A DNA stretch of 64,000 nt from contig CAJNOJ010000013.1 of NCBI GenBank assembly GCA_905250025.1, forward strand, positions 310,001-374,000, given 5' to 3'. This DNA comes from Adineta ricciae (taxonomy: Eukaryota; Rotifera; Eurotatoria; Adinetida; Adinetidae). Every line of letters begins with the position of its first letter. Within the stretch, counting starts at the first letter, position 1. Both the position numbers and the translations under genes were made by a program. Positions 21,234-57,730 of the stretch are shown here, in pieces. The notes under the pieces were generated by a model, which worked only from the letters and a program-made list of their open reading frames with translations, was not told the DNA's origin and searched no databases.

Positions 21234-24200
21234 TTAAAATACATTGGTTAGCCGGCGACGAAGACAATCGAGAATATTCAGCTGAGAACCATATCGGTGA
21301 ACTACTTTCAAGGTTTCGAGAGCTGAGGCGTTCGAAGTCACTAGAAAATCATACGAACTATTCCTATTTGGAGCAGGTATAAACGTCATCGGTGGAGTGA
21401 CGAGTGGATAGTCACTCATTGGAAATGATAGCAATTTTGCTGGTGCTGGTGATGGTAAGCGTGGTGGAGGTGTTATTCTTGTTATTACTGGTATTGTTGA
21501 AGTAGTTGGCAACGATTCAGATGCTTTCATTGCATCTTCAATAACAGTTAATAATCTGGTATAATCGTTGATAGTGATTTGTATTTTATGTTCGCTTTTC
21601 AGTTCATCTTTAATTATAGAATACGCCTGAAGTCGATGAGTGGTGCAGATTTTATGCAATTGAACCAGTTCACGACCATTGATTTCGTTGCATAATGGAA
21701 TGATTTTTTGTAAATGATGCACCAAAAGACAATTCAATACATCCGAGGGTGTCCATGTTTCGATGTGTTTCCGAAGAAAATTAGTGTTTTGTTGAACGGA
21801 TTTGAGTATTGTCGCTAATATATCTTTGTTTGCAGTTGATTGCTCAGAAAGCTTCCTCAATGATGGTTTCTTCTCCTTTTCCAGAGGATTTGTAATCAAA
21901 GCCGTTGCCGCTGTAGGTGACATATGGTCTAGTAGATTAACAGATACATTTGAAGCTGCTTCTCTTCGTTGTAAACTGATTTCCATCATCAGTTTTCCAC
22001 ATGCTGTCTCAAAATCAAATCGACCAAAATCAACATAGATTCGCGATCCAATCAAGAAGCCAAGCCAACCATCCGGTCGATAACCTGGCCTCATGATTAA
22101 TGGAAGCAATCGTCGTTTACAGTTGAAGGCATATTCAGCTTCGGCTTGGCAATATGTGCTTTGTTTATAGGAATCAGACATGCACATGATCACAAATTCA
22201 GAATTTTCCACTGCATAAGCCATCGCATTCATTGCTGAATAGAAATAGAAATGCTAGGTGATCAGTGAGAAATTCCCTTACCAGGTCCATACATATTATC
22301 CAGATCGATCCAGACTTTGAAGCCTTGATCAACAAGAAATTTATAAATCTTATATGTGAGTTCCTTGTCTGTGTGACAATAAGATATCATTATGTCATAT
22401 TGAAATGATCTTTCTCCAGACGAAATATTATCTTCTTTTGTATTAAGCGTTGCCGTTTCGCCATCACTTTCTCTGTCTCGAATTGTACCTTTTGATCTAG
22501 CTGCTTCTTGTGCCTCAACTTCATGGTCTACTACTTTTTGTAAAAAAGCTGATTCTAAAAATATACAGACGCATTGTGACTACATTTCATATACGTAGAA
22601 TTTATACCTTTAAGAAGTTTCCATACAAGGCCATCAACTGCTTTTTTCATCGCTTCGTTACTGTCGCCCTTGGATACATTTTGAATTTTCTCAACAAAAG
22701 CTGAGTTATTACGAAGGGCGCGAGCGATATTATCCGAGAATGTTAAAGACCATAGAATTTCGTAGAGTAATACGAGTGATTTTCCTGTTAGTTCATCTGT
22801 CAAATTGACAAGATACGGGAGGACGTTTCGTTTATTGATTTCATCCTTGACTTGATCATGCTGAACAAGTCCTAGTAGAAAACGGGGCAACAATGACGAC
22901 TGAAACTGAAATATGCTCTCACCTTTCAGAATACTCAGAAGTTGTTTTGTTTGACTTTTCTTATCAGATTTCTCTTTGAGTGTTGACTTGAGCGATTGAA
23001 GAATTTTACCTAGTATCTCATTCAAATTAGGTATTGTCTTGATATCATCCTCGTGAGTTGCATGGGCAAGAAGTGTGTATGCATTCAGCACTATTCCTTC
23101 GTATCGACATGATGTCAAACGAAGAAACGACTCCGTCTTGTGACTTTCTTTCATATGCGCAAGAATATTCGATTCATTCTTCATTATCACCAGAAATCGC
23201 ATGGCACTGTTCAACAGCAGTGTCTCACCGTTCGACAGCGTTTCGCTAATATTCTCGTACAACGACGCTTCGTCCACCAGTCGAAGAACATGATCGATCA
23301 GTGGTAAGTGTTCGCTCACTAGTTTCACATTGTTGTCAAACTCGCCTGTGCCATGGTTGATCATGCTCAGCAACGCGTCGACACACCGAATCATCGACTG
23401 ACTCCAGTGAGAACACGAAGGCATGGCCTTGTCCAACATGGTGACATAGTGTGGCAGCATTGTGGACAAGAGAGTGTGCATGGTCTCTTCGAGTGCCGAG
23501 CCGTGATAGGAGCTGATGAATGCAGGACATTTGAGAAGAAAGAACTTGTGCGATGTTGTGAGTGAGTTGGAGAGAGTAGCGAACGAATGGACGAAATGAG
23601 TGGAAGTGAGACAGAGTTGAACGGGATGAAGGAGCTGGATGAAGGTATCTTTGTTGGAGTGAGGATGTTGACTGAGATGCTGTTGATAGAGAGTATAGGT
23701 GTGTATGAGATGAGTGAAGTGTCTGAAGGGTTGTTTGTTGTTGTCGTCGAGAAACTTGCCCGTGTTGGCTATGTGAGTGAGTGAAGTAGCAATAGTGTCG
23801 AGAAGTGTAGAGTCAGATAACCAAGACGGTATGAGAGTCGTACTAAGAGTCAAAATAGATGCTAATTTAACCGTAGAGGAGAATGTAGAAGTTTGATCAT
23901 CTGTTAGAGAGCCTTTCTGTTGCCATTGCTGCAATATATCAATCAAATATTTTTGACAGATAGAGAAAAAGCTATTCTGTGAAACTGATGATAACATGAC
24001 TGAATTGACATCTAGCAGTGCATTAAGAATATCGATCAAGATTGGTAATTGATGTTGCTGCTGTTCCATATTATTACTATTAAAATTCTTCATAACACTT
24101 GTAATTTTGTTCAGTATACCACCTAACTCTATCTCGGTGATATTTGACGATTGATTCTTCAAAATTTGAGAATAGTTATCTATGGAGTCATCGTTACGCG

Positions 24201-24564
24201 TAGCGTTGTCCGCTCGTGATACCGCCGGTGCTGATGTTTGCATCGGTCGTTTTTTATTACCACGTGAATGACTTTTTCTTTTGTGTAAATTAAATCGATA
24301 CCCTTTCGTTGTTTTATGAACATGGAATGATATCGATGTTTGCTCAGAAGGTTGTTTGATATCATCGAGAATTTTCGATTGATTTCGATCATGACGGTGT
24401 AAATTTACTTTTTGTTCTCTCGATATGACAGACGAACGTTCGAATGACGAAGGTGATTGATATGCTCGCGGAGGATACGAATAATAATAAGGAGTACAGG
24501 CCAGCGGTATATCTGCATATAATGACGATGGATAATAATTGTATGAAGAATTCCAAGATGACAT
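21234..24564 (-). CDS. ARM-like/TIR/SAM protein, copy A
   Basis: Exons (minus) are 24564-22923, 22871-22608, 22554-22282 and 22234-21234, giving 1059 aa. The 51-bp intron 22922-22872 is in frame and would read through; it is supported by the same position in copy B. Order: a Tyr/Ser/Pro-rich N-terminus (1-150); a long all-helical armadillo-like region (about 150-640); a TIR domain (about 688-825) with YDIMISYCHTDKE, FKVWIDLDNMYG, MCMSDSYKQSTYCQAEAEYA and WLGFLIGSRIYVDF; a SAM-like domain (about 885-960) with WTPSDVLNCLL and INGRELVQLHKIC; a Ser/Pro-rich tail. The Cys-x-x-Glu region matches the area holding the NADase glutamate in enzymatic TIRs, so NAD+ cleavage is possible but unproven. SARM1 has the same parts with SAM before TIR. 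It is tandem with copy B and shares a 758-bp block with it. Confidence 0.85.
23066..23823. repeat. 758-bp block identical to 26963-27720 (direct repeat, copy A)
   Basis: By eye no mismatch or gap is seen over the whole block, while sequence on either side diverges abruptly (shared edges near GCAAGAAGTG and AGATAACCA). It lies inside exon 1 of the TIR copy A gene, about residues 247-499. It codes in the same frame in both genes. The coding strand is relatively rich in C; the plus strand is strongly C-poor at 23520-23800. Confidence 0.9.
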
Positions 24565-25214
24565 TGGAAACTTGAATGTTTTAATTTATAGTCAATTACT
24601 TCTATTTACTAGAATCGATGTCTTCCTATTCATTTTATCTATATAATCGAAGATAAAACACAGGATACAGACGATTATACCAAGGAGAGGCTCTTCGAAG
24701 CGAAACGGTGTATTGATGAAGGAAAAGAAAAATAGAAATCAGATAGACAAGTATTCATTTGCTCGTTGTATATTAATTCATTTGACGTAGAAAGAAGCTA
24801 ACCATCGTCATTTAAAAATCATTTCTATTGATGTTTTACGAAGAAAAAAAAACTTCTTCTCAATAACATTGAAAGGAAATATATATGATTCATATAGATA
24901 TTTGGACTAATTCAATCAAGATTTTATTTTAGCCATAGAATAAACGTCATAGCACAAATATAACTGACGTTGTAATAATCATTATCGTGAGTAAAAATCA
25001 AGACGCTTCACGCACTACGACTGTAAAACCACAAATAAAAAAAGCTACCAGCGAAATGTTTGTCATACATTTATAATCGATTACAACTCGCATCACTATG
25101 TACTTTCTACACGTAAGAAAAACACAGTATTTATTATCATTAATTGGATTCTATCGAATACAAAACCAGCAGTAAACGGAAAGTATCATCTGAAGTTGGC
25201 CGAAATGTCAATTA
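24565..25214. other. Spacer between the two TIR genes
   Basis: A 650-bp AT-rich spacer holding the 3' flank of copy B and the presumed promoter of copy A. No coding exon, repeat or RNA gene was recognised. Confidence 0.4.
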
Positions 25215-28200
25215 TCAAGAAAATGCTGTTTTGGCATAGTTTAATCCATAACGTTCTATCGTTCTTAAAATATCCAAAGTGGACGCATTCGAAGTAAGTA
25301 AAAGATCATATTGCGTATCCGGATAGGTATTGTACTCATTTGAAGTGTATTCTTGCGGAATGATATCCGTTGTTGTATCAGAATACTGCCACGAGCTTTG
25401 TGCTAATGACCATGGATCAATATTTAATCGTTGTTCGACAGCGCTTAGAAATACAGAGAAAGTTCGAATAGATAATTTTGTTTTATACGTTGACTTTAAT
25501 TCGTCGTTCAAAATACCGTACATGCAACTATGTTGTGACAGACACATTTTATATAATTGTATAAGTGCTCGACCGTTCATCTCCGTGCATAGTGGCATCA
25601 TGGGTGTTAAACGTTCAGTTGAAAGAAAATCCAACACGTCGGAAGCTGTCCAGTCCTTGATTAATTTCCGATTGAAGTTTGACATTGTCTTTCTCTGTGT
25701 GAAGCTTGAAAGAATGTTGGTGTTATCATCCATTGATGGTTTCTCATGACCACTGATTAATACTGATTTCTTATCGGACTTTTCGTCTCCTTTGACTCGG
25801 TCGGCTTTCGATGGTAATGGCCGTTTACTTTGAAGACTGATTTCAGTCATTAGTTTTCCACATGCCGTCTCAAAATCAAATCGACCAAAATCAACATAGA
25901 TTCGCGATCCAATCAAGAAGCCAAGCCAGCCATCTGGCCGATATTTTGGTCTCATGATCAATGGGATTAGTCGTCGTTTACAATTGAAAGCGTATTCAGC
26001 TTCCGCTTGGCAATATGTGCTTTGTTTATAGGAATCAGACATGCACATGATCACAAACTCAGAGTTCTCCACAGCGTCCGCCATTGCGCTCATTGCTAAA
26101 GAGAAAAGCAAATGTGAAGATCTCCGTTGACGAAAGAAAAGGTTCACTAACCAGGTCCATGCATATTGTCGAGATCGATCCAGACTTTGAAGCCTTGATC
26201 AACAAGAAATTTGTGAATCTTGTAAGTCATTTCTTTGTCTGCATGACAATAAGATATCATAATATCGTACTGGAACATTCGTTCACCGCTAGAATTTATT
26301 GCTGGTTTAATGGTTGTCACCAGTTGTTTTTGACCATCACCTGTAATAACTTCTTCGACGATAGTTTGTGTAACTTTCTGCTGATTATGAACTTCATCTT
26401 CTTCCTGTTTGGCGATCTTTTTAAGAAATGTCGGTTCTAAATCACAAACAAGATGGTACAATTATTATCGCATATCTGCAACGGTGCAACTTCTACTCCA
26501 TATACCTCGGATAAGTTTCCATACAAGACCATCAGCTGCCTTTTTTAGTGCTTCATCGTGGCTTTCTCTCGATATATTTTCAATTGTTTTGAGAAAAGTT
26601 GGATCAGAGCGTAAAATCAACGCACTCTCATCATGAAACGTAAGCGACCATAAGATTTCGACTATTGACACGTGTGCTTTGCCCGTTAATTTATGAACTA
26701 GGCCAAGTAGAAATGAGAGAACGTCTTGTTTACTTATTTCAGCTTTTATTTGTTCATGTTGAATTAGACCTAAATATATCGAATTCACTATGAAACGAAG
26801 TTTGAATATGCATGCCTACCTTTTAATATTTCCAACAACTGTTCTGTTTCATTTTTCTTTTCGAACTTATCATCCACAGTTGTTTTCAAAGATTTAACTA
26901 TTGTATGCAATAATCGATCTGATTCAGGCATTGTTTTTATATCTTCTTCACGTGCTGTGTATGCAAGAAGTGTGTATGCATTCAGCACTATTCCTTCGTA
27001 TCGACATGATGTCAAACGAAGAAACGACTCCGTCTTGTGACTTTCTTTCATATGCGCAAGAATATTCGATTCATTCTTCATTATCACCAGAAATCGCATG
27101 GCACTGTTCAACAGCAGTGTCTCACCGTTCGACAGCGTTTCGCTAATATTCTCGTACAACGACGCTTCGTCCACCAGTCGAAGAACATGATCGATCAGTG
27201 GTAAGTGTTCGCTCACTAGTTTCACATTGTTGTCAAACTCGCCTGTGCCATGGTTGATCATGCTCAGCAACGCGTCGACACACCGAATCATCGACTGACT
27301 CCAGTGAGAACACGAAGGCATGGCCTTGTCCAACATGGTGACATAGTGTGGCAGCATTGTGGACAAGAGAGTGTGCATGGTCTCTTCGAGTGCCGAGCCG
27401 TGATAGGAGCTGATGAATGCAGGACATTTGAGAAGAAAGAACTTGTGCGATGTTGTGAGTGAGTTGGAGAGAGTAGCGAACGAATGGACGAAATGAGTGG
27501 AAGTGAGACAGAGTTGAACGGGATGAAGGAGCTGGATGAAGGTATCTTTGTTGGAGTGAGGATGTTGACTGAGATGCTGTTGATAGAGAGTATAGGTGTG
27601 TATGAGATGAGTGAAGTGTCTGAAGGGTTGTTTGTTGTTGTCGTCGAGAAACTTGCCCGTGTTGGCTATGTGAGTGAGTGAAGTAGCAATAGTGTCGAGA
27701 AGTGTAGAGTCAGATAACCATAATGGTACTAGTGTGATGTCATCGATGACTTTGATTATTCGGTGTAGTACTTTGGTAGTGATATGAAACATTGATGCTT
27801 CATTGTCTGGCAAGTAGGAGAAACGTTCCCATTGTTGAAGGATATCGTTAAGTGTTGTTCGGACCAAGGAAAACTCTTCACTTTGTATAGCTGATGCCAA
27901 TGTTGATCTCGGTGCATAATAAAGTATTCTTAGAAATTCGATCGAAATAGGTAACTGCTGCTGTTGATCTTGATAATGTATTTGTTTGAGTTGACTCATA
28001 TGAGTATTCAATAGATTGATTAATTCAAAGTTGGACAGTGTTTTCAGCTTTCTTTTGACGGTTGGAGTTTGAGAATGCGTAAAATGAGAGGATGTGAATG
28101 TCTGCTGAGGATTGATAAATGGCTGATAAGGTGTAATCGGATGAGATACATACGGTTGATTATACCACGGATAAAAGTGTCGTTGTGGCAGCTGGTATGG

Positions 28201-28215
28201 ATAAAACTGATACAT
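25215..28215 (-). CDS. ARM-like/TIR/SAM protein, copy B
   Basis: Exons (minus) are 28215-26820, 26769-26506, 26436-26152 and 26095-25215, giving 941 aa. Intron positions and phases equal those of copy A, and exon 2 is 264 nt in both, which proves duplication of an intron-bearing gene. The N-terminus is a Tyr/Pro/Gln-rich segment unlike copy A (MYQFYPYQLPQRHFYPWYNQ). An armadillo-like helical region follows. The TIR domain (about 615-745) has YDIMISYCHADKEMTYKI, WIDLDNMHG and SDSYKQSTYCQAEAEYAF. The SAM-like domain (about 805-880) has WTASDVLDFLS and MNGRALIQLYKMC. The tail is short and Tyr/Ser-rich. The linker before the TIR differs greatly from copy A. A nearer acceptor (TTTCATAG) would give a 32-bp first intron; the 50-bp choice matches copy A. 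Function may be innate-immune or NAD+-linked cell-death signalling by analogy with SARM1; this is inference. Confidence 0.85.
26963..27720. repeat. 758-bp block identical to 23066-23823 (direct repeat, copy B)
   Basis: It is the second copy of the block, about residues 165-417 of TIR copy B. Flanking exon sequence aligns only at protein level (for example SILTLSTTLIPSWLSDS in A against KVIDDITLVPLWLSDS in B). The repeat is therefore not the whole duplicated unit but a homogenised part of it. Copies are 3,897 bp apart. Confidence 0.9.
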
Positions 28216-50709: not shown

Positions 50710-53707
50710 TTAGCCATCTAGTTTTCCTTTCGAACGACTTCGTGATCGATGTAATGGACCCAAGAGCATGAGTTGACGTATGGACTTCTCGTTCGCATTT
50801 GCTTGTCGGTGGTCTTGTCGAATTTTCGTGAAATCAGCAATAATCTGTTTACATACAACAACAGAAAAACCAGATGTTTCTGCCGCTTTTTCTTCAAGAG
50901 ATTTGTTTGCTGTTGACTCTGTGGGTGGTTTCGCTTTCGATAAGATTGAACGTTGAGTCTTCTCGGTCGCTCGTGGACGATTATTATTTGTTTGTGGTTT
51001 CGTTACTTTTTTATCTGCAAAACGAACAGTAGGAGATGCGCCAAGATTGCTCACACTATGTGGACGATTGCGAGTGGACGGTTTTCCCACAGCAGCAGTA
51101 CTAGCACCATAATGAACACTGCGTTTATCATTCTTATCTGTTGACGATGACGTCGCCTCTTTTTCTTTCAGTTGAACTTCTGCTTTACCGTACAGAGATA
51201 TCTCATCTTTAAATGGCTGCCCTACAGAAATCATATCAAGTTTACCATTATTTTGTGGATCATTAGATGATCTTCTCGCAGCTGAACTTGAACTTCTCGA
51301 TCGTTTCAAGCGATGCATCGAATCTGTAATTTTCGAAACTGCACGTTTAACACTCCGAGTAAATGCTTGGAAATGACCACTGGGCGTTAGTGTCAACCAA
51401 GTATAAGTTGAATTCGACGATAATTGCGATTCCTCAATTAGACCAGCAGTAACAAGAACTTGAGCAACAGGACGCGATATTTGTAAGTCGTACTCATTCA
51501 AACGAAAACATGCAGCATATGACGGCTCCAGATCACTACGCATTTTACTCAGTGGAAGATGTGCATGGAAAGATCGAACAGCAACTTCACAGCCGTTTTC
51601 ACGTTGAAAATTAGCGCTTATTTTCTGAGCAGCCTCTTGTACTGCCGGATCATGTACGAATTTGAAGGAATCAGCTAACTGTTTGGCGGTGACGGTTTTA
51701 CCAGGCGCTGGTACAGGCCCTGCACCACTTTTACTGACCATATTTCCCCAGAAGAACTGATCACCAAAGAAGGGAACAATGATCGTTGGTTTTCCGGCGC
51801 GTAGACCAGCTGCAGTTGTACCTGCACCGCCATGATGACAAACAGCTGATACTAAAGAAAAAGTAGAGAGAGAGAGGAAGGAATGAGATGTCGAATGATC
51901 AAGTGCGTTTACCATGCTGAAACAACCAATCATGTGGACAATTGTCAATTTTCAAGATATTATCGGATAATTTATTTTTATCGACATCGAAGCCAGATAA
52001 TAGAGCTCGGTATCCCGTTTGTTCCAAGGCATCCAATACAACATGCAAAATTCGAGCTGAATCATGACCAGTAATAGAGCCAAAACCAATATAGATCGGC
52101 GGTGGATCTTTTTTCAGGAAACGCAGCAAATCGTCAGGCGGTTTATAATTTGTCGCAAGATTGAGAAAGAAAAATCCGGATACATCGATATGTGTGGGCC
52201 AATCCGAAGGTTTGGGGACAAGTGAAGGTGACCAACAGTAAGTGTGTGGAACATGCTCATCCATCATGATTCCAACAGCTTGGCGTGTATGCAAAAGAGG
52301 TAAACCAAGTGTGTCCTCACGGAACTCGTTGATAATGTTACGCATACAAGACCATGTCTAAACACAAAAGCGATTGTTTCAAAAGCGTATATCAATGCAC
52401 GGGTGACTCACCAATACTTCTACTAGATCGTATGATAACATATTGATTCTATCTATCGGCGCTCGATTGTAATCAACTTTAATGAACGGATGTGGAAATT
52501 GAATTGTCGGCGACCAAGGCATAGTGAATACGATGTGTAGTGGGATTTGCAACTTCTGTGCACAGTGTATATGACCGTACGATGGTGGATTTGCAATGAT
52601 TGCTTCAGCAACGAATGGTACACCTGTTTCATCGTCGTCTTCAATACATGCTTTCCATGTTGACGCAAGTATCTCACCGATTACGCGACGACTTTTCCCA
52701 ATATCACCAGCCACAATACTACTCACTGATGGAACAATTCCAGCGTTCTTCACCATGAACGACATCAGATCAGCAGGATCGCCCGCCAATGGATAGAACT
52801 CGATTCCGTTCTCTCGCACGAATTTCCTGAATGTTTCATGTGTAGCGAGACGAACTCGATGTCCACAAGCGAGCAATGCTTTGGCAAGAGCGATGAATGG
52901 TTGAACATCACCACGCGTACCAACGATCAGTATAACGATAGCCAGACGTGGTATAGGTCCATGGATCTCAGTTTTAACTTCAACAATCTTATCATGTTCG
53001 ATATTTTTTAAATGTTCTTTATCGTCATCGGGTGCCTGATCGTGATGATCATCATAGTCGATGCCATTCTTTTTCGCATGCTTTTTTAGTGCGTGAATAA
53101 AGAGTGCAATGAGTCCATCGGAATCGTCGAAGCTCGCAGCGTAATCAAGACGGTTGCCACGTAACTTTCTGGCTGAGTTTTCATGCAGATCATCGAGATC
53201 GATTTGACCGGCTAAACGTGATGGTAGAAGTAATCGAGCATGCAACCGAAGTCGATATCCTTGTTTCGAATAGATGACCAGCAGGTTATTGGAATCGCGG
53301 TTCAAATGTTGTGTCAAACAAATTGGTTGTGGGAGAGTACTCGAGAAGATTTCTTTTTCATTCAACCATACGATCACTGCAGGTATTTTGACACTGGACT
53401 CCTCGTCATTGTCTCTCTGATTGGTCGAAACGTATTCGAAATGCAGGTAAAATTGTTGATGAGAATCGTACTTTTTTCCTAAGTCAAACCTTTTCCTATA
53501 CCAATACGAAACACATGTGGAAGTAAATTTTTGTTGTAGCTTTTTATCATCGTGATGTGGCAATTGAATCTGTGTCCAATCTCGATCATCATATGATAGA
53601 GATATGAAATCCGGCTCGTAAGAAGATGTATTAGGTACGCGAGTATACCGCCAATCACTGTCAAGATTAATCGCTGTTGTTGTATCTGTATTATCGTGAT
53701 TCACCAT
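50710..53707 (-). CDS. Sterol-glucosyltransferase-like GT1/GT28 enzyme, copy 1
   Basis: Exons (minus) are 53707-52412, 52357-51913 and 51851-50710, giving 960 aa. Residues 1-180 resemble a GH2-type jelly-roll sugar-binding fold (DSDWRYTRV, DDRDWTQIQLPHHD, CVSYWYRKRFDLG, VIVWLNEKEIFSS, NNLLVIYSKQGYRL). The glycosyltransferase follows: IPRLAIVILIVGTRGDVQPF, the signature of UDP-glucose:sterol glucosyltransferases (fungal Atg26/UGT51, plant UGT80). Then come HRVRLATHETFRKFV, YCWSPSLVPKPSDWP, PIYIGFGSITG and the donor-binding VSAVCHHGGAGTTAAGL with PFFGDQFFWG. The C-terminus (about residues 700-960) is a long Ser/Lys/Arg-rich tail lacking the membrane-targeting-like segment of copy 2. It is a likely cytosolic enzyme acting on membrane sterols; substrate unproven. 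Tandem with copy 2, with strongly uneven similarity. Confidence 0.88.
52553..52921. repeat. 369-bp tract about 99% identical to 56224-56592 (copy 1)
   Basis: By eye only four substitutions, all apparently synonymous, and no gaps. It covers the start of the glycosyltransferase domain in exon 1. Adjoining sequence of the two genes diverges much more. Copies are 3,671 bp apart in direct orientation. Confidence 0.85.
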
Positions 53708-54214
53708 TTCTTTCGTTGTCTAATGTAAAAAGAAAAGAAAAGTTCCCGACTACTTTCTACTATATATACAAAAACATTCGAGAAAGAATGATTCCAATGT
53801 AAATAATACGATTCACGCTTTCTGCTCCATAGATCTGTGAGAAAAAAAGACATTTGATTGTAAAGTAAATGTTAAGTTCTCTTTCTTTTGTTGATTCTCG
53901 TAACGTTGCTATACACATGCGCACACGCTTGGTGATCAAGCAACGAACTATTAAGAGGTTATAAAAGATCAAAATGCAAATGTATTTAAAGAATAAATTT
54001 TAAAGTCACAATTCAGGTTGTTCATCGTTATTGGATGATGAATATTCTAAGAGCTTCCGGTAATTATTATTGTATATAGAACTGTATTTTTAATTTTCAA
54101 AATTGAAATTGTGTTTATCTGCACATTAATTTAGGAGAAACAAGAAGCACAAAACAAAACAACGATTATAAAATAGGCTCTATCAGAATCTACAGGAAAG
54201 GAGAGAAAAGAAAA
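53708..54214. other. Spacer between the two glucosyltransferase genes
   Basis: About 500 bp with the promoter side of copy 1 and the 3' flank of copy 2. No coding exon, repeat or RNA gene was seen. Confidence 0.4.
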
Positions 54215-57200
54215 CTAATGAGGTGCCGCAGAATGGCTACGTTGTCGTTGAAAAAGATGTTTCTTTAATTTGTGACTCTTCTTCGTTTCCTTCGAATTTT
54301 CATGTTCGTTGATTGATGACGAGGATGATCGCGTGCTGTGGTCATATTTAATACGTTCAAATTCTGTGAGAATTTGTTTACACACTTCGATTTGTAAGCC
54401 AGATAGTAATGACGCTTGACCTTCAGGCGAACTTTCTTTGGTAGTCATCGATGAACCTGACGATGATCGTCGATGTCCCGGAGTGAATACGGACAATCGA
54501 CCATCTGAATTGGAACTTCTATGGTGTGATAAGTGTTTGGCTTCAGCATAAATACCTCGACCAAGCCAAGTTAATGAGGCGAGTGTACCGACAACTGGTT
54601 TAATAACAACATTTGGTATAGCAATAGCAGCACCTGCTGCTCCACCTAACACACCGTGCCTTTCGTAACCTGTTCGGGGTTTATTGACAAGTCCTGTTAC
54701 ACCGTCTTTAAATCCATGCCATATAGAATGTTCAGCTGCTCGAGCACCAGAATTAAAGTCTTCGACCTGTGGTCGTTTGCGTTTATCTGAATCTGAATAC
54801 GGATCATATAACTTTGGTAAGCGTTCCAGTGCATCCGTGATTTCGCCATAAAATGAAAGACAACCGATATATACGTGTCCAATGCTTTTTCCTACACCCC
54901 TCACAATACTTTCTGCACCGTCTAATGTACCTGTTGTTAAACTGTTCGAGCCAGCTGCTCGTCTTAGACCTTGTGCTGTATCGATAAATAAACTTGTTAA
55001 TGCTTTATGACCATGTTTCATAAAACCGTGTATGGGTAAATGTGGTCGACCATCATATGTTGCTGCATACCAATCACGAGTTGCTAATGGTGTTAAATCA
55101 GATTCTTTGATTGCCCCTGCGGAAATCAGTACTTGAGCAACAGGACGCGATATTTGTAAGTCGTACTCATTCAAACGAAAACATGCAGCAAATGACGATT
55201 CCAGATCACTGCGCATTTTGCTCAGTGGAAGATGTGCATGGAAAGATTGAACAGCTGCCGCACAGCCATTCTCATTTTGGAAAGCAACTCGTAATTCATT
55301 TGCAGCGGTACGCGTACCTGGTTCGTGCGCTATTTTGAATGCTTCAATTAAGTCCTTCGAATTCAAACGCTTGCCAGGAATTGGCTGTGGCCCAGCATTA
55401 CTTTTATTAATCATATTTCCCCAGAAGAACTGATCACCAAAGAAGGGAACAATGATCGTTGGTTTTCCGGCGCGTAGACCAGCTGCAGTTGTACCTGCAC
55501 CGCCATGATGACAAACAGCTGATACTAAAGAAAAAATAGAGCGAGAGGAAGGAATGAGATGTCGAATGATCAAGTGCGTTTACCATGCTGAAACAACCAA
55601 TCATGTGGACAGTTACCAATGACGAACACATTCTCGCGTAATTTTTCGCCCTCATTTGCTAAACCAGATATTATTGCTCGATATCCTGTAGCATCCAGTG
55701 CTTCTAATATTATTTTTAAGATACGTCGAGGATCATGGCCAGTAATGGAACCAAAACCAATGTAGATAGGAGGATCACCTTTTTCTAAAAACTCCATCAG
55801 ATCCTCCGGTGGCTTGTAATTTGTTGCTAAATCAAGAAAGAAAAATCCTGATATATCAATGTAGTCAGGCCAATCGACTGGTTTGGGAACAAGTGAAGGT
55901 GACCAACAATATGTAAAAGGAACGTGTTCATCAATCAGTAAACGAACAGCTTGTCGTGTATGTAATGGAGACAAACCGAGAACATCTTTACGAAATTCGT
56001 TAATCAGATCACGCATACCTGTCCATGTCTAAATACGGATACGACAGAACAAGTGTTAACAGCAATTATCTGTGATACTTACTAACATTTCAAGAATATC
56101 GTATGATAATACATTGATCGTATCTTTAGGACTGAATTCATAATCAACTTTAACAAATGGATGAGGAAATTGTGTTGTTGGCGACCATGGCATGGTAAAG
56201 ATCATATGCAATGGTATTTGCAGCTTCTGTGCACAGTGTATATGACCGTACGATGGTGGATTTGCAATGATTGCTTCAGCAACGAATGGTACACCTGTTT
56301 CATCGTCGTCTTCAATACATGCTTTCCATGTTGACGCAAGTATCTCGCCGATTACGCGACGACTTTTCCCAACATCACCAGCCACAATACTACTCACTGA
56401 TGGAACAATTCCAGCGTTCTTCACCATGAACGACATCAGATCAGCAGGATCACCCGCCAATGGATAGAACTCGATTCCGTTTTCTCGCACGAATTTCCTG
56501 AATGTTTCATGTGTAGCGAGACGAACTCGATGTCCACAAGCGAGCAATGCTTTGGCAAGAGCGATGAATGGTTGAACATCACCACGCGTACCGACGATAA
56601 GCATTAGAATGGCTACACGTGGTACTGGACCTGTTTCTAATATCGTTTCCATAGTAGATTGTCCAGTACCAGTCGCATGTTCACATACACTATCCTCATT
56701 TGCATGGAATGTGCTTTTCAAAATATCTTTATTTTTATGTCGAAACGAGTCAATGAAGACATTGATTAGTCCGTCAGCATCATTGAAACTGGCTGTGTAA
56801 TCCAATAACTGTCGTCGGCTTCTCGGTGTGGACTGATTAACATCATCGTAGTTGACTTGACCAACACATACGCGTGGCATACATATTCGAGCATTCAATG
56901 AAAGTGTATGACCTTCTGTTAAATAAATAACGAGAAAATTATCTGCATCGATTTGTAAATCATTCGTTAACTCGATCGGCTTTGACAAAGTACCCGAATA
57001 GCTTTTCTTTTCATTTAACCAAACCGTAGCTGAAGGTATTTTGTTGTCTTCACTTTCGTCGTCGTTTCCGGTTTCGATCGGATTGAAATGCAAATAAATA
57101 TGTTGTTGATGATCAGGTTTGTTTCTCCACTCGAATTTTTTACGATAACAGACAGGACATGATAGCTTGACAGTATCTTGATGTGGTAAATCGATCGATT

Positions 57201-57339
57201 CCCACGATTGATCATTGTAATTCTTTGAAATAAATTCTTCATTCGTTTGAGCCTTCGTTAAACGAAGAAACTTCCAATCGCGATCAAAATGTACAACAAG
57301 CGTTGATTCTTTATCATCATTACTACTAATCGTTGTCAT
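54215..57339 (-). CDS. Sterol-glucosyltransferase-like GT1/GT28 enzyme, copy 2
   Basis: Exons (minus) are 57339-56083, 56028-55584 and 55524-54215, giving 1003 aa. Both intron positions and phases match copy 1, and exon 2 is 445 nt in both. The same N-terminal jelly-roll-like domain is present (FDRDWKFLRL, NDQSWESIDLPHQD, ATVWLNEKKSYSG, DNFLVIYLTEGHTL). The transferase domain has VPRVAILMLIVGTRGDVQPF, YCWSPSLVPKPVDWP, PIYIGFGSITGHD, CHHGGAGTTAAGLRAGKP and FFGDQFFWGN. The C-terminal region (about 720-920) adds GFKDGVTGLVNKPRTGYERH and AGAAIAIPNVVIKPVVGTLA. This is a Gly/Ala-rich pattern like that of VPS13/ATG2 C-termini and of fungal sterol glucosyltransferases, suggesting membrane association. 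A basic Ser-rich tail follows. The catalytic His in CHHGGAG is intact in both copies. Confidence 0.9.
56224..56592. repeat. 369-bp tract about 99% identical to 52553-52921 (copy 2)
   Basis: Second copy of the tract, in exon 1 of glucosyltransferase copy 2. A separate tract spanning exon 3, intron 2 and exon 2 (55412-55611 against 51739-51940) is also nearly identical, intron included. Confidence 0.85.
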
Positions 57340-57730
57340 GTTATTGTCGAAATAAATAACGAAAATGAAATTTTTACATCGACAGGAAAAAAAGCACGAT
57401 ATCTGCCGGTAGATGATGAGTAATCAGAAAAATGTGTCGCCAGAAAGAAAATTGTTGCCGAACTGATAGAGAAAAAAAACATGCTTTTCATCTTAGTCAC
57501 ATTGGATCATAAACGCATTTTTCTTCTCTTTTCCCCTCCCATCAGTCTGCCAAAGCGGCTCTTTTTTTCTTTCCTTTCTTTCTTTTCTCTCGAATATGTC
57601 GACAATACTAGAACTAAATTTATTCATCCGAGAAGCGTACGACAGAAGAAAAAGACGGATGAAGAGAACGAACTAATGTCTGTGTACTATCGCAGATCAA
57701 TGAACAACTACTTTCATGATGCTTTTTGTT
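57340..57730. other. Spacer between glucosyltransferase copy 2 and the K2P gene
   Basis: About 390 bp, including a T/C-rich stretch at 57560-57590. A plus-strand frame at 57481-57768 overlaps the K2P 3' end and has no features; it is taken as chance. Confidence 0.4.

Follow-up and report, generated by a model that had tools for sequence, protein, structure and literature searches.

Domain architecture of two tandem ARM-TIR-SAM genes and their putative role as regulated TIR enzymes

The window analyzed here is a 64,000-nucleotide stretch of contig CAJNOJ010000013.1 (positions 310,001 to 374,000), and all positions given below without a handle are counted from its first letter. The region 21234-28215 is filled by two minus-strand genes, A and B, which are probably of animal origin and both of which code for an armadillo-like (ARM) N-terminal region, a TIR domain, and a predicted SAM-like C-terminal domain, in this order. 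As judged from searches of the genome, A and B are two tandem members of a large ARM-TIR-SAM family, not a special pair. The proteins are proposed to be regulated TIR enzymes, autoinhibited by ARM, clustered by SAM, and cleaving NAD+; a probability of roughly 0.5 is given to this reading. A preliminary description of the region had listed the same three parts in the same order, and this order was recovered in both genes, with the TIR assigned by Pfam TIR_2, the ARM and SAM parts by fold models of B, and gene A by its homology to B.

Gene models and domains

The models of both genes consist of four exons, which are open throughout after splicing. The introns are short and have GT-AG borders (51, 53, and 47 bp in A; 50, 69, and 56 bp in B), and all three lie at matching places in the two genes. 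The ATG of gene B is at 28215, and the stop codon of gene A ends at 21234. The third intron is inside the TIR, after a D-N-M motif, in both genes; once it was removed, the TIR aligned there without gaps with paralogues that read through intronless, which supports the spliced model. The long open reading frame (ORF) of gene A was rejected as a single exon: the first intron of 51 bp is in frame, and the 17 codons of the raw ORF that represent intron read-through are spurious as protein. Both proteins are probably cytosolic.

Pfam TIR_2 was matched above its cut-off in A (residues 690-804) and B (residues 612-726), and the domain is internal in both, not C-terminal as in SARM1. The sequence SDSYKQSTYCQAE was found in A and B alike. 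The preliminary description had compared its Cys-x-x-Glu region with the glutamate area of NAD+ hydrolases, and the alignment agrees: in both proteins, this Glu (E73 of the family alignment) falls opposite E642 of SARM1 (residue 81 in the query). The family alignment has 15 rows with a mean column identity of 58%, and D4, S8, Y9, D34, S53, C70, E73, and W98, among others, are invariant in it; it was made from 15 of the 32 TIR places examined, after removal of incomplete, split, and nearly identical places and of the Gln-bearing C325:52235. Glu occupies the catalytic-type place in 31 of these 32 places (132 were found in total), the remaining one being the paralogue with Gln. Such conservation across the family would be the pattern expected of a catalytic residue, and a catalytic-type Glu is supported by it and by the alignment with SARM1 E642. 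The NAD+ hydrolase activity of the A and B TIRs is putative.

When the TIR profile was searched against PDB, the best match was Cat1 (9mud, E 1.7e-11), which was compared by its TIR only and carries Glu at the corresponding position. Cat1 is a bacterial CRISPR-associated TIR filament protein that cleaves NAD+. Next came Toll-like receptor (TLR) and MyD88 chains (2.8e-8 to 1e-7), then plant TIRs (2e-6 and weaker), and lower down AbTIR (0.0013 and 0.003), Caenorhabditis elegans TIR-1 (0.0015), and the same TIR-1 in a chimera with human SARM1 (0.0044). NCBIfam and PADLOC returned weak TIR matches and nothing else. The scan of prokaryote genomes with a paralogue TIR gave 31 pattern matches, none of which was confirmed.

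Structure prediction was run for B. The AlphaFold2 (AF2) model of its C-terminal domain has five main helices, and in the Foldseek search, ranks 1-12 of 67 were SAM entries from seven proteins: DGK-delta, Hyphen/Aveugle, Shank2, Shank3, Scm, bifunctional apoptosis regulator, and SMS1. The TM-scores of the SAM matches were up to 0.74 by target and the probabilities up to 0.99; the SAM chains of SARM1 ranked below the top 12. By sequence, the domain was sub-threshold. Pfam SAM_PNT was seen in six of 23 members at E up to 1, and its best match (0.0073) scored 16.7 bits where the cut-off is 24; the 19 Pfam families listed for the domain included no further animal SAM family. The PDB profile search yielded seven weak rows, the first of which was a fusion with S100-A4 and annexin (0.095) and no SAM, while four of the seven were SAM or Pointed domains (liprin-beta-1, SMS1, and FLI1 twice; E 0.1-0.85). 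SAM_2 also has matches in the genome, and all of them fall outside the 34 C-terminal-domain places. The alignment of this domain was prepared from 23 of 30 regions, after seven near-identical copies were dropped and with four further places outside it; W, G, and L are invariant over the 23. The C-terminal domain is thus predicted to be a divergent SAM, judged by fold rank and TM-score, not by E-value. A short motif starting near Tyr-Asp-Phe/Ile was also observed 3' of the SAM-like domain, and it recurs in the A/B subfamily (21234-21400; tails of the C1 and C6 paralogues).

For the N-terminal region, 16 exon fragments were aligned, some of them trimmed at a stop. With this 16-row alignment, the exon-1 part of B (405 residues) was modelled as all helical (pLDDT 88.5, pTM 0.85). 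Foldseek returned 975 matches, eight of which pass 0.001, and the best was the ARM region of beta-catenin (E 3.1e-4, probability 1.00, TM-score 0.49 by query, root-mean-square deviation [rmsd] 7.9); the best 50 of the 975 are mostly beta-catenin, with some designed armadillo proteins. Pfam assigned no family to the N-terminus of A or B, with none at E <= 0.1 for the B region alone, and the other 15 ARM fragments had weak families, each in a single member. Three matches, all designed helical proteins, were obtained in the PDB profile search. The N-terminus of B is predicted to be an armadillo-like superhelix, loosely matched, and that of A would be armadillo-like by homology to the modelled B. 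Both folds named in the preliminary description were thus returned by the models, and its profile check placed the TIR above and the SAM below the Pfam cut-off.

Genome-wide family and divergence of the pair

The 132 TIR places in the genome were reduced to 114 loci after merging at under 400 bp; the loci are merged matches and not curated genes, and the counts of TIR, ARM, and C-terminal places are lower bounds. The C-terminal domain of B was located at no fewer than 34 places, and 32 of them are 3' of a same-strand TIR (31 no more than 400 bp away, the other at 2.9 kb), so the domain order is not a matter of chance; by chance alone, about 0.2% of places would be expected 3' of a TIR and within 3.5 kb (arithmetic from the counts and genome size). 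All 44 ARM places are 5' of a TIR, within 3.5 kb. Both partners were present at 23 of the 114 TIR loci, the C-terminal domain alone at nine, and ARM alone at four. For five of the 34 C-terminal places, a same-strand TIR follows within 6 kb downstream as well, as tandem clusters predict. Tandem copies were found at C1, C13, C127, C225, and C483, and in this the family is like expanding immune families. The preliminary description had called the two genes the best candidate in the window for a signalling or immune system, which is reasonable, but the sequences point to a multigene family rather than to a special pair.

The two C-terminal places outside the 32 are in C39 and C234. In C39 (80500-83500), a long open frame is followed by a weak TIR-like stretch (hhalign E 0.021, probability 2.3%), which has no Cys-x-x-Glu motif, and by a clear C-terminal domain (3.4e-15). 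It is possible that this paralogue with a decayed TIR is a catalytically dead regulator. At C225:32296-32889, an open frame carries a tandem repeat of part of the TIR ahead of the C-terminal domain, with an ambiguous residue at the junction, and this may be an assembly join. The C19 cluster (328077-359591) has at least seven TIR places, with ARM upstream of three and no match to the C-terminal domain; these are possibly ARM-TIR genes without SAM. A SARM1 candidate at C186 (60500-65500), where SAM and TIR matches lie close together, was rejected: the 5-kb stretch has SAM-like exons close to its beginning and a divergent TIR towards its end, with a long other region between them; no ARM was seen in it, and the architecture is unlike that of A and B.

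The DNA of A and B is mostly 40-62% alike in 100-column windows, with the exceptions of the TIR (75-93%) and a 758-bp tract in exon 1, which is identical. In the first window past the tract edges, identity falls to 45% and 61%. No substitutions were found in the 251 tract codons compared, and silent differences in the flanking ARM codons are near saturation (pS 0.79 and 0.77). The tract probably arose when gene conversion recently acted on the exon that codes for ARM; alternatively, it may come from an assembly error. The TIRs of A and B are 93.5% identical (dN 0.035, dS 0.75), and by these values the domain is under strong constraint. An older conversion has perhaps taken place in the TIR too, since its silent divergence is below that of the flanks. 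Elsewhere (ARM outside the tract, linkers, and SAM), the proteins are 26-51% identical. Beyond the TIR, most silent sites have reached saturation, and conclusions on selection are therefore confined to the TIR.

Coordinates of genes A and B and of their parts in the window
Feature	Position	Strand	Details	Basis
Gene A	21234..24564	-	1059 aa; exons 24564-22923, 22871-22608, 22554-22282, 22234-21234 (stop included)	spliced GT-AG model
Gene B	25215..28215	-	941 aa; exons 28215-26820, 26769-26506, 26436-26152, 26095-25215 (stop included)	spliced GT-AG model
Gene A armadillo-like region	22609..24078	-	two exons	match to B ARM region, pieces 80% and 51% identity
Gene B armadillo-like region	26507..27999	-	two exons	AF2 model of exon-1 part and Foldseek
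Gene A TIR	21978..22405	-	split by intron 22235-22281	Pfam TIR_2 5e-21; genome search places
Gene B TIR	25839..26275	-	split by intron 26096-26151	Pfam TIR_2 1.2e-22; genome search places
Gene A C-terminal SAM-like domain (predicted)	21528..21785	-		match to B domain, 42% identity, E 4.4e-18
Gene B C-terminal SAM-like domain (predicted)	25416..25694	-		AF2 model pLDDT 89.9, pTM 0.79; Foldseek
758-bp identical tract, A copy	23066..23823	-	exon 1	pairwise alignment with B
758-bp identical tract, B copy	26963..27720	-	exon 1	pairwise alignment with A

Elsewhere in the window, minus-strand ORFs in 50713-57423 have glycosyltransferase matches and are apparently duplicated; an EryCIII-like C-terminal part was detected in two of the ORFs scanned and a family 28 N-terminal part in one. 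An ORF at 4359-5972 matches a polycystin channel (Pfam 4e-37).

Proposed mechanism and alternative explanations

In the proposed enzyme, the armadillo region would hold the TIR inactive and bind a trigger, which may be a metabolite, a peptide, or a partner protein, while the C-terminal SAM would make the protein oligomeric. Upon release of ARM, the clustered TIRs would form an active assembly that cleaves NAD+, leading to a signal or cell death. Because SAM is placed after the TIR instead of before it, SAM would tether and seed the TIR assemblies from their C-terminal side. The SAM domains of DGK-delta, Scm, and Shank polymerise, which fits clustering of the present proteins without demonstrating it. 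The ARM and SAM parts diverge fast beside a near-fixed TIR, and this fits varied inputs or partners with one common output. The family may serve immunity or cell death. For SARM1, inhibition by the ARM-TIR contact and clustering of TIRs by SAM rings are described (PMC8635717).

Several observations weigh against this reading. The TIRs of the scaffold proteins TLR and MyD88 (3e-8 to 1e-7) were matched far better than those of the NAD+ hydrolases AbTIR and TIR-1 (0.001-0.004), and the own TIR of human SARM1 was not among the 37 PDB rows at E <= 0.01. Glu at this place is no proof of catalysis, since the TLR-type TIR 7ylf carries it at the aligned place too; MyD88 has Gln, as does the paralogue at C325:52235, and the TIR-like stretch of C39 is devoid of the motif. 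No Foldseek SAM match was significant (best E 0.34, none under 0.001), and the superposition is poor for two of the 12 top SAM rows (rmsd 8.1 and 11.2). The ARM region is matched loosely (TM-score about 0.5, rmsd 7-9), and there was no SARM1 chain among the best 50 of the 975 Foldseek matches for the N-terminus of B. The identical tract makes A and B uniform over part of the presumed ARM sensor, which speaks against a simple story of diversification. A more elaborate version of the mechanism, in which the proteins would be TLR-independent intracellular sensors with diversified ARMs, C-terminal SAM polymers seeding TIR filaments, NAD+ cleavage as the output, gene conversion that carries ARM segments from one tandem copy to another, and decayed-TIR regulators, is considered rather unlikely as a whole.

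The better match to TLR and MyD88 TIRs is what would be expected if A and B were scaffold adaptors, in which TIR-TIR contacts act in an innate pathway and ARM and SAM recruit partners with no cleavage of NAD+. The family member with Gln and the retention of the C-terminal domain beside the decayed TIR-like stretch in C39 point the same way, but Glu is kept in 31 of the 32 places and is invariant in the family alignment, and the best PDB match is Cat1, so this alternative is regarded as somewhat unlikely. Doubt about the SAM assignment leads to another alternative, namely that the C-terminal domain is some other small helical bundle. The sub-threshold SAM_PNT matches, the lack of further animal SAM families in the list of 19, the S100-A4/annexin fusion as the top PDB profile row, the best Foldseek E-value, and the SAM_2 matches that miss all 34 places would agree with it. 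This is nevertheless improbable given the five main helices of the model, the SAM entries at all of the first 12 Foldseek ranks, SAM_PNT as the commonest sub-threshold family, and the SAM or Pointed domains in most of the weak PDB rows.

A and B share three kinds of domains with SARM1, and the aligned Glu as well, as a rearranged orthologue acting in the neuronal or stress role of SARM1 would. However, their TIRs are 19-20% identical to that of human SARM1, and one SAM follows the TIR where SARM1 has two before it. With the human SARM1 TIR as query, the genome gave no match at E <= 0.1; this search was made without a positive control, so that the empty result alone shows nothing. SARM1-like proteins are described as typically one per genome (PMC7075850), as opposed to the 23 two-partner TIR loci found here. 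Because of the different order and the TIR identity, it is regarded as very improbable that A and B are SARM1 orthologues. The order had been called reversed relative to SARM1 in the preliminary description; it does differ, but the word is loose, as the arrangement is a permutation with a single SAM after the TIR.

Comparison with known TIR proteins and significance

A and B resemble SARM1/TIR-1, an animal NAD+ hydrolase whose SARM1 form is a nerve-death enzyme, in the armadillo N-terminus (in the B model), Glu at the E642 position, and SAM in one chain with the TIR; the ARM-TIR-SAM order, the single divergent SAM, and the multigene family set them apart. ARM-TIR genes have been reported in oyster (PMC4346834) and Aplysia (11 in a table; PMC9334734). 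As in A and B, an armadillo-type fold is followed by a TIR and there are several genes per genome, described as functionally uncharacterised, whereas a C-terminal SAM is not mentioned in these descriptions, on which alone the comparison is based. The ecTIR-DC families of invertebrates are TIR proteins described as absent from vertebrates (PMC6321704, PMC6836662, PMC5549309); by its description, family 6 has ARM-like repeats as A and B do, but with a Death domain and two TIRs. An amphioxus gene model with cDNA support combines TIR and SAM (PMC2575513), and ARM is not mentioned in its description, by which it was compared. A 2026 TIR atlas describes several clades that are frequent in non-model animals as uncharacterised, and it separates the clade of SARM1 from the other TIRs of animals (PMC13142454).

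No description of the ARM-TIR-SAM architecture was recognised in the literature search, which covered mostly titles and the starts of abstracts and few subscription papers. The ARM-TIR core is already known, and the ARM-TIR-SAM architecture is well supported, with a function that we infer. The label little-described, used in the preliminary description, consequently suits the C-terminal SAM-like domain and the function, but not the ARM-TIR core, which is on record in molluscs. Routine annotation may label such proteins as ARM-TIR or plain TIR and miss the SAM because the domain is under the Pfam cut-off.

In two bdelloids, Adineta vaga and Rotaria tardigrada, no TLRs were found according to one source, which also calls the response of TLR-less animals unknown (PMC8609888). 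In a term search of a study on the bdelloid response to fungus (PMC11258130), the whole words TIR, Toll, SARM, and armadillo were absent. The repeat TGTGGG, counted as a possible marker of a rotifer host, occurred 12 and 26 times and its reversed control 14 and 30 times, so the marker does not single out a rotifer. If the source genome is that of a bdelloid, the ARM-TIR-SAM family would be an obvious candidate for a TLR-less response. If the proteins are enzymatic, animals would have a second arrangement in which ARM and SAM regulate a TIR that hydrolyses NAD+, here with SAM on the opposite flank of the TIR, and a comparison with SARM1 would then allow the rules by which SAM activates the TIR to be tested.

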